From a virus, in the IMG/VR virus record IMGVR_UViG_3300008459_000012, positions 1 to 64,000 of that record: 64,000 nt of DNA; one strand, given 5' to 3'. The notes beneath the pieces are model-generated. The model saw only the letters and a list, made by a program, of their open reading frames with translations. It made no database searches and was not told where the DNA came from. Below, piece after piece: positions 4,468 through 12,152 of the stretch. How positions within the stretch are numbered: position 1 is the stretch's first letter; each line of letters opens with the position of its first letter. Position numbers and translations under genes: made by a program.

Positions 4468-4755
4468 TTAAAGACCGTTTGATTTAAAGTAGTCAATAAT
4501 CTCTTTATTAAGATTATTATACTCTTTGATGTAATCTTTTAGTTCACCATCAAAATCAGAAAGTTGGTCTTTATTGATTTTTTCCAATGCTCTTTCTAGA
4601 GGCATTCCATAACCTAAGTTTTCTTGTTTGGTTGCCATTTCTCCTGTTGTTGGTGAATTGCGACCAAACCCTTCACGTTTTTCATAATCAACTTCTTTAT
4701 AGAGGTTGTAATGTGAACTTTCTTGTTCAATAAGATAATTTTTATACTTAATCAT
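4468..4755 (-). CDS. hypothetical protein, charged (95 aa)
   Basis: No known family. The protein is soluble, rich in Glu, Lys and Tyr, with a predicted helical C-terminal half. The start ATG overlaps the stop of the gene upstream (ATGA), so it is translationally coupled to the 160-aa protein and is the last gene of the purZ-like operon, ending at the bidirectional terminator. Co-transcription is the only hint of function. Confidence 0.6.
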   Translation of the reverse strand: MIKYKNYLIEQESSHYNLYKEVDYEKREGFGRNSPTTGEMATKQENLGYGMPLERALEKINKDQLSDFDGELKDYIKEYNNLNKEIIDYFKSNGL

Positions 4756-5234
4756 ATGACATTTATTTTAATCTTTATATCATGTGGTGCTACACTTGTA
4801 CCACCAAAATAAGGTTTTAATATTGTTTTAATTGGAAATAATTTTTCACCTCTTCTTGGAAGAATTATACTAGCATCTTTAAAAAGAAGATAAAAGTTAT
4901 TTGTAGAAACGATTATTCTTGCACCATAATAAGTATTATAGTCTAAAGTCATTTCTTTACTGATATTTTTAATCCCATTATCATATGTGTATAGACATAT
5001 TTGAAATTGCTCTTCATTAAGTCTTCTCCAACATAGTCTTGCTGATGATTGATGTGGATGCCAAGAATTTGATAAACCAAATAATTTATTCCAATCATAA
5101 TCATCTTCTGTATTAAATGTATAATGAGCAGATGAATCAATCATAAATTGAAACTTAATGCTTCTTCCAAATTTGAAGAATGGAAAGTTAACCCAATTTG
5201 AATAATGCTTTCCTTTTTTGATTATATATTCCAT
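4752..5234 (-). CDS. conserved hypothetical protein, aromatic-rich, probably beta-structured (160 aa)
   Basis: I do not know a function. Motifs such as KLFGLSNSWHPHQSSARLCW and the ending FGGTSVAPHDIKI recall an unnamed family found in Bacteroidota and large viruses, with the same His-His-Ser-Ala-Arg core and a Phe-Gly-Gly ... Ala-Pro-His-Asp-Ile end. This comes from memory and was not searched. Richness in aromatic and beta-branched residues suggests a small beta-sandwich. It starts one base after the stop of the purZ-like gene (TAATATG) and is coupled to it; a link to nucleotide metabolism is possible but unsupported by any motif. Confidence 0.6.
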   Translation of the reverse strand: MEYIIKKGKHYSNWVNFPFFKFGRSIKFQFMIDSSAHYTFNTEDDYDWNKLFGLSNSWHPHQSSARLCWRRLNEEQFQICLYTYDNGIKNISKEMTLDYNTYYGARIIVSTNNFYLLFKDASIILPRRGEKLFPIKTILKPYFGGTSVAPHDIKIKINVI

Positions 5235-5235
5235 A

Positions 5236-6243
5236 TTATATTTGATGTGGATTTCCTGAATAAATAATATTTATAAACTGCGGTATTTCACTCATCAAAG
5301 TATCATTGATGAAAAATTTCATTTCAATAAAGTTTTTAAATATTTTAATTTCTTTTTTATAAATCAATTTAAAAATATTTAATTCTTCAACTACATCAAC
5401 TTTATTAAAAATAATATCAGTTATTCCATTCATTTTAATTGCAGGAATTAATGTATCAAGATTTAAATAATTGCATTGTCTTAATCTTCCTGTGGTTGCA
5501 CCAATTTCTTGACCTACTTGTTGAAATCTTGGCAATTCAGTATTCTCCAAAGGTTGGAATTGTTTATTCCCAACATATGTCTCATATATCTTGGCAATAC
5601 CAAATACATTTCCAATCATGTGATGATTAATACCTGATGAAATAACACCTGCTATACCGCAATGTGATGATGTAACATATGGGTAATCTCCAAAGTCAAT
5701 ATCTAAACCCCATCCTTGCGCTCCTTCAAAAAGGAAGTTATTTTTTTGTTCATGAAATAATTCATAGGTATCAACACATAAAAATCCATAAATAGATTTT
5801 TCATATCTAATTCCCTTTCTTAAATACTTATCACCATAAGCATATGCAATACCTGATTTTGTTGAACCGATAGTAGAACCATCTGAATCTAATTCAATAT
5901 GTTTCTTTGTTATTATATGCGCTCTTTTATCAATTAAAATAAAATTACTAATATCCTTACCTAAGAATGCTGAAAGTTCATCAGTTTCTTTTTGGAGTTT
6001 TTCAATATCAACAACTGAGCAAGGACCAATGATAGAATATATATCAAAGAATACTCCAACAGGAATCTGATGAGTGACAAATTTACGACCTTTGTGATAA
6101 ATGGTATGACCTGCATTTGGACCACCGTTATATCTTACAACAAAATTATAATAGTTTTTGTTTTCTTGACAAATTGAATAAGCACATTTGGCTTTCGCTT
6201 CATCCCCATGTTGGAGACCAATGATAACATCTACTTTGTTCAT
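5236..6243 (-). CDS. adenylosuccinate synthetase-like enzyme (PurA/PurZ family)
   Basis: PurA joins aspartate to IMP; phage PurZ enzymes join it to dGMP on the way to 2-aminoadenine (Z). At 335 aa this is far shorter than bacterial PurA (about 430) and close to PurZ-type proteins. Conserved parts: P-loop GDEAKAK at 13-19 (bacterial GDEGKGK, both Gly now Ala), GGPNAGHT at 40-47 with the catalytic-type His46, FEGAQG at 172-177, DYPYVTSS at 186-193, GATTGRLR at 248-255, and NKVD at 280-283. The catalytic Asp (Asp14, E. coli Asp13), reported to be replaced in characterised S-2L-type PurZ, is retained. Hence substrate (IMP or dGMP) cannot be decided. It leads a three-gene operon from a host-type promoter 5 bases before its ATG. 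Confidence 0.85.
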   Translation of the reverse strand: MNKVDVIIGLQHGDEAKAKCAYSICQENKNYYNFVVRYNGGPNAGHTIYHKGRKFVTHQIPVGVFFDIYSIIGPCSVVDIEKLQKETDELSAFLGKDISNFILIDKRAHIITKKHIELDSDGSTIGSTKSGIAYAYGDKYLRKGIRYEKSIYGFLCVDTYELFHEQKNNFLFEGAQGWGLDIDFGDYPYVTSSHCGIAGVISSGINHHMIGNVFGIAKIYETYVGNKQFQPLENTELPRFQQVGQEIGATTGRLRQCNYLNLDTLIPAIKMNGITDIIFNKVDVVEELNIFKLIYKKEIKIFKNFIEMKFFINDTLMSEIPQFINIIYSGNPHQI

Positions 6244-6295: not shown

Positions 6296-7327
6296 TTACT
6301 CTTCATCAATAAAATAATCGCAAAGAGTATCTTTATCCATCAACCCATCTTGATAATCCATAATCGCTTTAAGGATTTCAATTTTGGAATGATTTACTTT
6401 TAAAACCTGTTGAACATTTTCATCCATAAGATAATCATAGATTTTCATTAGTGATGAAGATTTTGCTTTTGGTTCTGTTGTTTTTTCAGGTTTGAAACCC
6501 ATCATTTTCTTAACCTCATCATCAGAAAGAATTACATCTTCAATAGGTTTTTCAACAACAGGTTGTGAAGACTTTACTTCAACTTCATCATCTATATCAA
6601 ATGTGGGGAAGTTATCATAATCATCAACAATATTTTTTGCTTTGATATCTTTAGTGATATTCTTTTTAACACTTTTGATTTCTTCGTCATCACTTGTTGT
6701 GACTAATTCAACTATATCTCTTGAATACACTCTACCACCTTTATTTTCAATTGCTTGATTGATGATTTTCTCAAGAGTTTTTGCGCTTGATACTTGTTCC
6801 ATCAGTTTAATTGTTTCACTAAAGGAAATAAGTTCATCATCAATCTTAACTTGAAGTGATACAGGAATCTTTTCAAACTTCTTTAAGGTTGAGATATTTG
6901 CTTGAGTGATTTGCATCATATCAGCAATTTTCTTGTTATCATAACCAAAACTTTGAAGTCTTGTGATTGCCTTTGCTTTTTCAGAGGTTGTAAGTTGTTT
7001 ACCTGTTATACCAAGCATTAAGGCTTTCATTAGAAGTTCATCTTCACTCATCAGTTCAAAAACACGAACAGGAATTTGCCTTTTTGTGTTTTCTTCATTC
7101 TCAATGAGAGAAAGAGTTTTAAGTCTTCTATGTCCTTCAAAGAGTTTATAAATGGGTCTACCATCTTCTAAACTTTTGTTGGTTTCCATTACAAGAAGAG
7201 GTGTAAGGATATTTTGTTCTTTGATACTATGATAGAGATTTTCTACATCATAGTTCTCTTCTTTACGAGGATTGAATTTTTCAATCACTTCAATTTGGTC
7301 CGAAAGGACATAGCTAAACTGTTCCAT
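6296..7327 (-). CDS. ParB-like protein (ParB/Srx domain plus helix-turn-helix)
   Basis: At 343 aa this is the size of chromosomal ParB. The N-terminal ParB/Srx domain shows FNPRKEENYDVENLYHSIKE at about 18-37, the ILTPLLVM strand, and the box II-like GHRR at 65-68 (GERR in classical ParB). A helix-turn-helix follows at about 129-150 (YDNKKIADMMQITQANISTL). The C-terminal 140 residues are acidic and not recognised. In plasmids and prophages ParB binds parS DNA and hydrolyses CTP; in lytic phages such proteins may be regulators or DNA organisers. No parA gene is adjacent. It has its own promoter and terminator, so it is a single-gene unit. Confidence 0.8.
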   Translation of the reverse strand: MEQFSYVLSDQIEVIEKFNPRKEENYDVENLYHSIKEQNILTPLLVMETNKSLEDGRPIYKLFEGHRRLKTLSLIENEENTKRQIPVRVFELMSEDELLMKALMLGITGKQLTTSEKAKAITRLQSFGYDNKKIADMMQITQANISTLKKFEKIPVSLQVKIDDELISFSETIKLMEQVSSAKTLEKIINQAIENKGGRVYSRDIVELVTTSDDEEIKSVKKNITKDIKAKNIVDDYDNFPTFDIDDEVEVKSSQPVVEKPIEDVILSDDEVKKMMGFKPEKTTEPKAKSSSLMKIYDYLMDENVQQVLKVNHSKIEILKAIMDYQDGLMDKDTLCDYFIDEE

Positions 7328-8702: not shown

Positions 8703-11700
8703 TTATTTAACAAAAAAGTAAGCAGTTTTTGTTTTAACTGTCTGAGTACAACTTGTACATACTACATCTACTCTATACCATCTGTTTGAATAGGAAGGTA
8801 ATGGACTTGCAACTCTCAAAAATGTGCTTGAGTTAAGTTCAGATGTAGTAAAAGTGATATTACCATTACTTTGACCTGCGTTTCTAACAGAACCCCCTGT
8901 TGGTTGCCAAATAAGTTTTGAAGCCTGTGTTTGCGATAATGTACTATCACTTGCTAAAAATCCATTAGCTGAATTTCCATTATAGAATAAAACTTTATAA
9001 CCTGTACTTGAACAACTATTACTTAAATTAAAAGAGTAAGTAAAATTTGTTCTTCTTCTATCAATTGCTGTAATTGATGTTGTAGTACAAGCTGATGTTG
9101 GTACTGATGGGTTATAATTTACAATAACATTAATAGGTAATGAGATTGAATTATATATTCCATTCTTTAATACTCCTGTATAACTATATGTGCCATTTGC
9201 TTTGTTTGTGACTGATAGTGTTGTTGTAAATGAATTATTATTTGTTAATGGTGAAGATTTAACAATTGTACTTCCTTCTTTAATTTCATAAGATGTTGCA
9301 TTATGATTTGAAGGTGTATTAAATGTAATTATATAATTTTTATCTAAATTAACTAAAGTATCAGCAGTAACAGTTGGTACTGCTAAACTGATTACAGGAT
9401 TATAATTTACAGCTACAGCTACAGAATTTGATGTAGTATTGTTTGGTGTCTTAGACGAATTTAAAAGTTTAGCAGTATGTGTATATGTTCCGTTTGAAAT
9501 ACCCAATCTGCTAAGAGTTATTGTTATTGAATTATTATTAGCTAAATTACCTGAACCAATAACAGTAGTTCCTTGTAATATCTGATACGATGTTGCATTA
9601 TGGTTCTGTGGGATTGCAAAGGATAATACATAATTTGGGTCTTTATTTGATGTACTATCAACAGATAATGTTCCTGTTAAAATTGGGGTTACATTAAAAG
9701 ACACATTTACTGTAACAGGACTTGAGGTTTTAGTTTGACTTCCATTACTTAAATTAGCTGTGTGAGTATATGTTCCATTAGTTACATTTGTTCTAGCTGT
9801 TGTAATAGTTGTGGCATTGTTATTTGCTAAATTACCTGAAGCGATTACAGTTGTTCCTTGCAAAACTTGATATGATGTAGCGTTATGTGTTGATGGTATT
9901 GTTGTAGTTAGTGTATAGTTCTTATCTAAGTTATTTGCACTATCTACACTAATTGTTGGGGTTTTTAATGCTGTTGGTGAGTCTGTACCATCAACAGTAA
10001 TTGTATTAATAAAAAGATTATTGGATGGTATTGTTGTTAATTGTGTTGGTTTAAATACAAAAGCAAATTGAACATTTTTACATGTATCATAAGAAGATAA
10101 ATCAACTGTTTCAGTTCTCCAATCTGAAGATGTAATAGAAGCAGGTTTATATGGTGATGTTGATGTGTAAAGATTAGTAACAGTTCTTAAAGTAGTACCA
10201 CCCTTTTTATAGATTCTAACAGGTATTGTTTTACCACTAAAATATGCTAATATCTCTAAACTATCGTATCTTGGTGATGAACTAAGACCTAAAGCATGAG
10301 CAACTTTAAAATTAAGATTCAAGCTACTTAAATTATTATTTGTATAAACAGGAGAAAATGCTGTGTCTTGTAAAAATGCTGGGCTAGGATTATTAGTGCT
10401 TGTTATTGCAAATGTATGATAAAGCGCATTATATGTTGTTAATAAAAAAGACTTACTATTTTGCCAAAAACTTTGAACTAATGCACCATTATAGTTTGTG
10501 TTTAAATCTGATAATGATTGTGGACCTTTAAATTCCCAATTGGGATAATTTGCTGCTGTCCAAGTTGAAAATGTTTCTGTTTGTGGAATATTAAGTAATG
10601 GATTTACTCTTATTCTAATTTTAGCGGCATTTGATAAGCAACCAGTTTGTGTTGCTGTTACTGAATATAAACCTGAATTAGAACTTGTAAGAGAATTTAT
10701 ATTTGGACTTTGAGAACTTGATGTAAAACTATTTGGTCCTGTCCAACTATATGTTGCACCACCTACTGTTGTTGTTCTTAATGGTAATATTTCACCTGCT
10801 GAATAAAATCTTCTTGGTGTTGTTACTTTAATATATGGTATAGCGTTTCCAGGTAAACAAGATGAACCTGTTCTTATTTTGTCACCAGGTAATGGACCGA
10901 ATCCTTTCATTAAATCAACACCAGTAGATGCTGTATGACAATAACTCATTATTGTACCTTTTATAGGTTTTACTAATGTACCACAACCACCTTCTCCTGC
11001 ATAACAAGAGTCAATTCTACCTGTTCCACCACCTGCTTTAGGCCAACCGCACCAATGTGTATGTTTTGAACCAAAATTATGACCCATTTCGTGTGCTACA
11101 ACGTATACAGACCATGAATATGTATTTATATTATTATTAAAAGTATTATAAATATTGGAATAACCAAAACGGTTATTATAATATAAAGGATTACAAACAA
11201 CATCAATCCAAGCTATTCCACCTAAAAACCCAAAATTTGTTCCTAACAAATGTCCAAGTTTTTGTGTTATATTCTGTCTTCTTGTTGTAAAATTATTTAA
11301 AATTGCTAATGATGATATTGGACTTATTGATGCATATGGGTCAGGAGTTGTCCAAATATAAACTTGGTCAACATAAATTGATATACCTTCATTTTCATAA
11401 ATTTGTTTTACTAGATTAAATAATGATGTGACTTTTGCGGTTGTATTTGCAACAGATAACCCATTCTCTTGGTACATTCTATAATCACACTCAACATATA
11501 TACCTATTGTTTTACATCCTGAACCACCAACGGCCTCTCCTACTTCAGGTGTAGGTGTGTTACCAATTTGTGGTTGTACTTCTCTTAACCATTGATTCTC
11601 ATCCACATTTAAAGGTGGGTCAGGTGTAGTACAATCAAAACTAGGTTTAGAAGAACCCATTTCTGATTCAGGTAGTGCTACATATGTATCTTTTGCAGTT

Positions 11701-12152
11701 CTTAGTTTACCAATGTTAATATTGTCATTTCCATCTCCTTGTAATAAACCACCAATATCATCTTTAGTAACAGTTAAACCACCAAAGCTTCTTTCATTTT
11801 TTCTATCAAAAACTTTATAACTTACACCTGTAAAATCTTTTCCTGAAAATTCTCTACCATCAGATGTTGTAACTTTAAAAGTTGATGTTACAACCTGATG
11901 TTTTTTAAATACATAAGATTTTATTTTACCATTTGGTCTTGGTAAATCAAAAACAAATTCTTCAGGTTCACTTCTATATAAAGTTGATAATGTTGTTCTA
12001 TCTAAAGATAATTGTAAACCTTTTTGTTTAATCTTACTACTTTTAGGTGCATTGGGGAAGTTCCTCAAAAAATTAAATCTTTGAGGTTCTTCCTGTGCAT
12101 ATGATTTTAAAGTTAATAATGTTAATAATAAATACAGATATATTTTTTTCAT
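8703..12152 (-). CDS. secreted metzincin metalloprotease with Ig-like, adhesin-like and repeat domains (1149 aa)
   Basis: Order: signal peptide MKKIYLYLLLTLLTLKSYAQ (1-20); propeptide-like region (about 25-165); catalytic domain (about 212-430) with the complete metzincin site HEMGHNFGSKH at 354-364 (His354, Glu355, His358, His364) and Met-turn GTIMSYC at about 399-405; an Ig-like domain with YSWTGPNSF; a lectin/MAM-like region beginning near PNWEFKG; three repeats of about 95 aa starting V(D/T)(S/A)D-like (SVDSTSNKDPNYVLSF); and a C-terminal domain ending WYRVDVVCTSC ... FFVK. This resembles M12-type proteases secreted by Bacteroidota rather than any virion protein. It is the last gene of the secreted operon starting at 22060. 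A target on the host or competing cells' surface is inference. Confidence 0.85.
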   Translation of the reverse strand: MKKIYLYLLLTLLTLKSYAQEEPQRFNFLRNFPNAPKSSKIKQKGLQLSLDRTTLSTLYRSEPEEFVFDLPRPNGKIKSYVFKKHQVVTSTFKVTTSDGREFSGKDFTGVSYKVFDRKNERSFGGLTVTKDDIGGLLQGDGNDNINIGKLRTAKDTYVALPESEMGSSKPSFDCTTPDPPLNVDENQWLREVQPQIGNTPTPEVGEAVGGSGCKTIGIYVECDYRMYQENGLSVANTTAKVTSLFNLVKQIYENEGISIYVDQVYIWTTPDPYASISPISSLAILNNFTTRRQNITQKLGHLLGTNFGFLGGIAWIDVVCNPLYYNNRFGYSNIYNTFNNNINTYSWSVYVVAHEMGHNFGSKHTHWCGWPKAGGGTGRIDSCYAGEGGCGTLVKPIKGTIMSYCHTASTGVDLMKGFGPLPGDKIRTGSSCLPGNAIPYIKVTTPRRFYSAGEILPLRTTTVGGATYSWTGPNSFTSSSQSPNINSLTSSNSGLYSVTATQTGCLSNAAKIRIRVNPLLNIPQTETFSTWTAANYPNWEFKGPQSLSDLNTNYNGALVQSFWQNSKSFLLTTYNALYHTFAITSTNNPSPAFLQDTAFSPVYTNNNLSSLNLNFKVAHALGLSSSPRYDSLEILAYFSGKTIPVRIYKKGGTTLRTVTNLYTSTSPYKPASITSSDWRTETVDLSSYDTCKNVQFAFVFKPTQLTTIPSNNLFINTITVDGTDSPTALKTPTISVDSANNLDKNYTLTTTIPSTHNATSYQVLQGTTVIASGNLANNNATTITTARTNVTNGTYTHTANLSNGSQTKTSSPVTVNVSFNVTPILTGTLSVDSTSNKDPNYVLSFAIPQNHNATSYQILQGTTVIGSGNLANNNSITITLSRLGISNGTYTHTAKLLNSSKTPNNTTSNSVAVAVNYNPVISLAVPTVTADTLVNLDKNYIITFNTPSNHNATSYEIKEGSTIVKSSPLTNNNSFTTTLSVTNKANGTYSYTGVLKNGIYNSISLPINVIVNYNPSVPTSACTTTSITAIDRRRTNFTYSFNLSNSCSSTGYKVLFYNGNSANGFLASDSTLSQTQASKLIWQPTGGSVRNAGQSNGNITFTTSELNSSTFLRVASPLPSYSNRWYRVDVVCTSCTQTVKTKTAYFFVK
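8706..9100 (-). other. shared C-terminal domain of the secreted family, protease copy
   Basis: About 130 residues beginning ACTTTSITAIDRRRTNFTYS and ending WYRVDVVCTSC plus a short beta strand at the very C-terminus. Sister copies end the proteins at 12157, 14585, 22083 and 23344. Common pattern: C at the start, F-YRF/YSF, a Cys-Pro or Cys-Ser in the second strand, R--SP-P---WYR-D-VC--C. The four Cys may form disulphides. It does not show the usual type IX secretion C-terminal signature. Confidence 0.65.
9105..9960 (-). repeat. three tandem ~95-aa repeats in the metalloprotease
   Basis: Each unit opens with a V-D/A-D/S--N-D--Y pattern (SVDSANNLDKNYTL, SVDSTSNKDPNYVL, TADTLVNLDKNYII), has a conserved NHNATSYQ(I/V)-QGTTVI core in units 1 and 2, and closes near NGTY(T/S)(H/Y)T. 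Degenerate units occur in the 806, 418 and 372-aa proteins. An Ig-like beta sandwich is likely. Confidence 0.7.

Follow-up and report, generated by a model that had tools for sequence, protein, structure and literature searches.

A compact PurA-like adenylosuccinate synthetase of uncultivated phages and its putative role in guanine-to-adenine conversion

We identified a gene for a compact adenylosuccinate synthetase in a 64,000-base stretch of viral DNA (the window), which comprises bases 1-64000 of a 91,136-base IMG/VR virus record that is itself a fragment. The enzyme is probably a working compact variant of PurA that, together with a GMP-reductase-like partner, shifts purines from guanine to adenine. 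This reading draws on the family, fold and residue conservation of the enzyme, on purifying selection and on the co-occurrence of a GMP-reductase-like gene in relatives and sister phages. Hundreds of contigs from uncultivated phages carry a member of the compact clade, and we see no indication of a modified base in the DNA of the phage.

A compact member of the adenylosuccinate synthetase family

The gene is an intact ORF with an ATG start that encodes a 335-aa adenylosuccinate synthetase homologue (Table 1). Its product belongs to the superfamily by its match to Adenylsucc_synt (Pfam accession PF00709, 233.9 bits, E 3.7e-69, cut-off 27), and every one of its 27 PDB sequence matches is a PurA or a PurZ. 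The ORF and the Pfam match bear out a preliminary description of this DNA, which had noted a PurA/PurZ-like enzyme of this length with the P-loop GDEAKAK. The enzyme scores below the PurA equivalog models NF002223 (221.3 bits against 402) and TIGR00184 (217.0 against 395.55), which are 425-430 positions long, and we therefore call it a compact PurA variant within PF00709. Relative to bacterial PurA, it has a deletion at approximately Pfam profile positions 147-205. The label 'PurZ-sized' in the same description is true of the length and is not diagnostic, since the archaeal PurA 5k7x (340 aa) is likewise short.

Table 1. Features of the window, in window coordinates.
Feature	Position	Strand	Basis
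DUF5664 (dATP/dGTP diphosphohydrolase N-terminal; PF18909 dGTP_diPhyd_N), partial, 112 aa	1..336	-	61.5 bits, cut-off 27
160-aa gene without Pfam/PHROG match, directly downstream of purA	4752..5234	-	ORF; pair kept in G003 (76% identity)
purA-like gene, compact adenylosuccinate synthetase	5236..6243	-	ORF, Pfam, structure model
NKVD, residues 280-283, guanine-nucleotide motif (E. coli Lys331/Asp333)	5395..5406	-	alignment
TTGRLRQ, residues 250-256, L-Asp loop	5476..5496	-	alignment
TYVGNKQFQP, residues 222-231, in place of PurA motif TRVGxGPFPT	5551..5580	-	alignment
Codon of His46 (E. coli His41), in NAGHT	6106..6108	-	alignment
P-loop GDEAKAK, residues 13-19; Asp14 is E. coli Asp13, Lys17 is Lys16	6187..6207	-	alignment
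ParB-like gene, directly upstream of purA	6296..7327	-	Pfam/PHROG; kept in G003 (74%)

We aligned the window enzyme and 80 viral relatives (the best 80 of 481; together 81 phage rows) with 36 compact Patescibacteria-type enzymes, four PurZ0, three PurZ, E. coli PurA, 46 rows with a cellular label (three PurA from phage-collection records, the other 43 being genome loci that are mostly bacterial), 19 long-type archaeal PurA (one partial), one archaeal short PurA and one huge-phage PurA. Asp13, Lys16, Asn38, His41, Thr129, Arg143, Gln224, Thr239, Arg303, Arg305, Lys331 and Asp333 (E. coli positions) are identical to E. coli PurA in 81/81 phage rows, so that the 335-aa enzyme retains 12/12 of the listed catalytic and substrate positions; for those other than Asp13 and Arg303, these roles are our assumption. 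The catalytic Asp and His that the preliminary description saw as kept are indeed present, as Asp14 and His46. The L-Asp loop retains Arg253 (Arg303) and Arg255 (Arg305) and carries a clade-specific Gln256. Both P-loop glycines (Gly15 and Gly17) are Ala in the window copy.

The canonical PurA loop TRVGxGPFPTE, whose altered sites are otherwise near-invariant in PurA, reads TYVGNKQFQP in the window. Arg272 is replaced by Tyr in 117/117 phage and Patescibacteria rows and is Arg in 65/65 cellular and archaeal rows of the alignment. Gly276 is Lys or Arg in the same 117/117 rows, and Arg306 is Gln in 116/117, including 81/81 phage rows. In window numbering, Tyr223 and Phe229 are invariant across the viral clade, and residue 227 is Lys in 78 and Arg in 3 of 81. 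We take the altered loop to sit beside the ribose and aspartate sites of PurA structures, and its clade-specific changes suggest that substrate preference may have been tuned, conceivably towards a deoxynucleotide.

Comparison with the nearest relative (G003) indicates purifying selection (dN 0.12, dS 0.56, dN/dS ~0.21). An AlphaFold2 model computed with 50 clade rows has a mean pLDDT of 90.0 and a pTM of 0.89, with residues 187-192 below 50 pLDDT. PurA structures rank first against this model in VIA-align (1iwe_A, Z 36.7, rmsd 2.1, 322 residues aligned), followed by Pyrococcus 5k7x (Z 33.2), PurZ0 7vf6 (30.8) and PurZ (at most 28.9). Foldseek likewise places bacterial PurA at the top of the family and PurZ/PurZ0 at the bottom.

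Distribution in phages and Patescibacteria

A scan of IMG/VR with three clade members gave 513 pattern matches and 481 relatives. The best 80 of these 481 (44-81% identity) are all of one compact type of 325-343 aa, apart from one 301-aa protein that ends at a contig edge. Among 50,697 named phage records, we found no close match. The best hit, at 36.7% identity to the window enzyme and 42.8% to the clade member L059, is in both cases a 399-aa PurA of bacterial type encoded by the 735-kb huge phage LR756501. Among large phages without a cultivated isolate the compact clade is widespread; the named phage genomes contain nothing that matches it closely, and the literature searched, which excluded most subscription papers and preprints, held no printed account of it. 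Phages that are only distant relatives have apparently exchanged the gene, because just 6/80 ORFs of the 91-kb record are matched in G001 and 2/80 in G002, yet the PurA proteins are 58% identical.

By their bit scores with the clade profile, the relatives in bacterial and archaeal genomes (best 80 of 244) fall into two clearly separate groups, 37 at 441-549 bits and 43 at 226-303. The 37 are titled Patescibacteria/CPR (nearly all Patescibacteria) or carry the unspecific title 'bacterium'. The compact form is the sole adenylosuccinate synthetase model match in the two Patescibacteria genomes searched (one a complete chromosome), and at Patescibacteria loci L196-L233 compact purA recurs beside cellular genes resembling UvrD, KsgA and ComM (named by eye). 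Gracilibacteria, Peregrinibacteria and a Microgenomatus have the ordinary long PurA. Separately, the PurA-like genes at L407 and L422, which adjoin GMP-reductase-like genes, have intermediate clade-profile scores (365-367 bits) and may represent a further subclass.

The viral and Patescibacteria enzymes form a clade with support 100/100 in an IQ-TREE phylogeny of 84 of the 191 rows, in which the Patescibacteria receive 100/97 and PurZ together with PurZ0 100/97. Among 200 bootstrap trees, the share that unites the phage rows is 0%, and the Patescibacteria therefore appear nested among phages. Phages as one clade are not rejected by the AU test (p 0.204), and the direction of transfer is not settled. 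Should the Patescibacteria enzyme prove to be of phage origin, bacteria with reduced genomes would clearly have obtained a gene of core metabolism from a virus.

A GMP-reductase-like partner and the proposed purine shunt

The commonest neighbour within 6 kb of clade purA is an IMPDH/GMP-reductase-family gene, found at 32/81 loci (the best 80 relatives and the window) and at 15/44 loci with full flanks. This family (Pfam accession PF00478) was matched in 19/34 clade-purA records tested, which were picked mainly for length among the best 80 relatives, and in 13/14 of those of at least 150 kb. The PF00478 gene lies within 17 kb of purA in 18/19 of these records, and G001 and G002 carry one too. 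The only background figure is an IMPDH-family match in 73/50,697 named phage records, some of which resemble bacterial contigs; the set retrieved with a RecA-like query (below) consists of sister phages, not of large contigs without purA. Searched in reverse, clade purA occurs at 2/80 loci nearest the G002-type GMP reductase and at 14/80 loci nearest the common type, most stretches being short in both sets; for the common type, it occurs at 4/10 loci with 10 kb on both sides. The link from purA to the GMP-reductase-like gene is strong, and the reverse link is looser.

We aligned 29 of the 32 neighbours, leaving out one truncated gene and two near-copies. All 29, as well as the copies in the sister phages G102 and G104, lack the flap segment that E. 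coli GuaB has and GuaC does not, a segment that we presume distinguishes IMPDH from GMP reductase. The catalytic loop is GGGS in 27/29, not GPGS. With the NCBI model for GMP reductase, NF003966, the G002 copy scores above the cut-off (409 bits against 344), and the five other neighbours scanned singly fall below every NCBI equivalog cut-off. Most neighbours are slightly closer to E. coli GuaB (~35-42% identity) than to GuaC (30-35%). We judge them to be GMP-reductase-like rather than IMPDH because of the short flap, although identity does not exclude IMPDH.

PF00478 has no match in the 91-kb record, which is a fragment. A RecA-like protein encoded beyond the window retrieved sister contigs at 81-96% identity, including G102 (170 kb, RecA-like identity 92%) and G104 (129 kb, 82%), which share much of the core at ~75-95%. 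Both carry a GMP-reductase-like gene. The G102 gene directly adjoins a family-B DNA polymerase gene (L352, 6013-10739) and scores 105 bits with the GMP reductase model and 86 with the IMPDH model, both far below cut-off. G102 also encodes ThyX and both RNR subunits and has a weak MazG match. Because these sister contigs stop before the purA region, purA and the GMP-reductase-like gene were not found together on any one record of the window lineage.

G003, which was retrieved by purA (81%), is largely collinear with the window, including purA with the 160-aa gene downstream and the ParB-like gene upstream. It lacks a ~16-kb block of the window (8.7-24.7 kb) that contains a gene for a 1149-aa M12B reprolysin-like metalloprotease (8703-12152, minus strand, 72.6 bits) whose signal peptide resembles those of Bacteroidota. 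Beyond the window, several small ORFs in a row that resemble glycosyltransferases and methyltransferases, named by eye (L005 3397-12383; 67.4-76.4 kb of the record), are mostly poorly conserved in sister phages.

The GMP-reductase-like partner suggests a guanine-to-adenine shunt. We infer that the compact PurA would join IMP and aspartate, using GTP, to form adenylosuccinate, which host PurB would convert to AMP. In clade-bearing phages, the GMP-reductase-like enzyme would usually supply the IMP from GMP. The resulting shift from guanine to adenine during infection would yield adenine nucleotides and, by way of ribonucleotide reductase, also dATP, a presumable benefit to an AT-rich phage (27.7% GC for the 91-kb record). 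AT-richness alone does not explain the gene, because clade loci reach 49% GC (loci of 40-49% also carry it).

Alternative readings and comparison with known systems

The preliminary description read the enzyme, together with a dATP/dGTP hydrolase, as a possible sign of modified purines. In such a scheme, a PurZ-like synthetase would condense aspartate with dGMP, 2-aminoadenine would replace A, and the DUF5664 protein would remove dATP. We regard this as very improbable. The Asp13 site is Asp in the window and in 81/81 phage clade rows, as that description had observed for the window, and Ser in 7/7 PurZ/PurZ0 references, for which Ser or Gly at this site is a mark; according to passages of Poubanne et al. 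2026 (PMC12884076), it is Ser in 147/147 PurZ sequences from phages, and 99% of PurA have Asp. The Arg303 site is Arg in 81/81 clade rows and, by sequence only, Lys in 4/4 PurZ0 and Lys, Arg and Leu once each in PurZ. According to a passage of PMC8342488, Arg303 of PurA contacts O2' of IMP, and in PurZ this residue is altered or displaced, far from C2'. The Lys331/Asp333 sites are K/D in 81/81 clade rows, F/N in 3/3 PurZ and M/D in 4/4 PurZ0. The NCBI PurZ model NF038379 gives 125.1 bits, below its cut-off of 300. For these reasons, the residues and the model score, we do not class the enzyme as PurZ. Pro42 (GPNAGHT) is common to PurZ and PurZ0, but also to some cellular PurA. In the PurA/PurZ tree that had been proposed as a check, bootstrap support sets the clade apart from PurZ, and a grouping of the two as one clade is not rejected by the AU test (p 0.258), so that the case against PurZ rests on residues and not on the tree.

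Of the companions of Z-DNA (DatZ, MazZ/DUF550, DutZ, DmtZ and DpoZ), the search covered DatZ and a PolA-type polymerase. No DatZ-like (PF12917) or PolA (PF00476) match was found by profile search in the four records covered (the 91-kb fragment, G001, G002 and LR756501), in line with the earlier remark that no DatZ or Z-specific polymerase is visible, and the polymerase beside the partner gene in the sister phage is of family B. The DUF5664-type protein reported at the left edge of the window is confirmed, as a gene cut by the record end 5 kb from purA. Its family was matched in the 91-kb record, not in G001 or G002 (1/3), and in 0/42 further records (34 with clade purA and 8 sister contigs) by the same search that detected the window copy. 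With 1/45 records, we rejected DUF5664 as a purA partner; it is probably an occasional neighbour rather than part of a fixed module, and alone it fits ordinary dNTP-pool control. DUF5664 relatives occur in phages with canonical DNA, according to a passage of PMC12884076. With the marker residues in the PurA state, the low PurZ model score and no match to the companions searched for in these records, we rejected the Z-DNA reading, and the hedge of the preliminary description, ordinary AMP supply, holds up. Discussion of phage PurA homologues has mainly been tied to Z-DNA, and in PHROG 1211 they go by the name '2-aminooxy adenylosuccinate synthetase', which would mislead for the compact clade.

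The clade could instead have shifted its preference to a deoxynucleotide that lacks a 2-amino group, such that dGMP from host DNA is converted to dIMP by the partner and onward through succinyl-dAMP to dAMP. The replacements of Arg272, Gly276 and Arg306, each in 81/81 phage rows, and the GGGS loop of the partner are consistent with this reading, which we nevertheless consider unlikely: the O2'-contacting Arg303 is kept throughout the phage rows, and RNR is encoded in a sister phage, so that supply at the ribonucleotide level would suffice. A fuller version, in which the clade is a third viral class beside PurZ and PurZ0 that acts with its partner from dGMP through dIMP to dAMP, and whose gene was captured by Patescibacteria as their PurA, seems slightly more doubtful still; if true, degraded host guanine DNA would be turned straight into phage adenine. 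A further reading, in which the gene supports the energy supply of the host or the ATP pool at large and not the making of DNA precursors, draws on the same enzyme evidence and on the loci of 40-49% GC, for which AT-richness is an insufficient explanation. Nothing speaks directly against it, as only the purpose differs from that of the shunt, and we hold it to be improbable. An inactive or moonlighting remnant of host PurA is hardly credible: the P-loop alanines and the internal deletion would fit one, but the gene is under purifying selection, the listed residues are all kept in 81/81 phage rows and the compact form appears to be all that the two Patescibacteria genomes have.

We thus favour the guanine-to-adenine shunt, and the enzymes proposed for it can be compared with characterized systems. 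The phage partner resembles GuaC in its short flap, which leaves no room for CBS domains, and one copy exceeds the GMP reductase equivalog cut-off; it differs in that most scanned copies pass no such cut-off and in its GGGS loop. The PurZ/PurZ0 enzymes of Z-DNA phages (7odx, 6fm1, 7vf6) share the superfamily and the short length with the window enzyme, but have Ser for Asp13, a lost or displaced Arg303 and a changed nucleotide-donor site (alignment; passages of PMC8342488 and PMC12884076). Archaeal short PurA (5k7x, 2d7u; L283) is alike in length and overall fold, whereas its identity is lower (24%) and it groups with PurZ and PurZ0 (96/96). E. coli PurA (b4177; PF00709) has the same fold, Asp13/His41, Arg303, NKxD GTP site and dimer Arg143; the window enzyme is ~100 residues shorter, with TRVGxGPFPTE changed to TYVGxKxF[QE]P and Arg306 to Gln. 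The short PurA of Patescibacteria (Kaiserbacteria, Paceibacterota, Parcubacteria) belongs to the same clade at 44-50% identity and has the same loop signature, but unlike the phage enzyme it stands in a recurring cellular context and has a P-loop that is mostly GDCGKGK or GDSGKGK.
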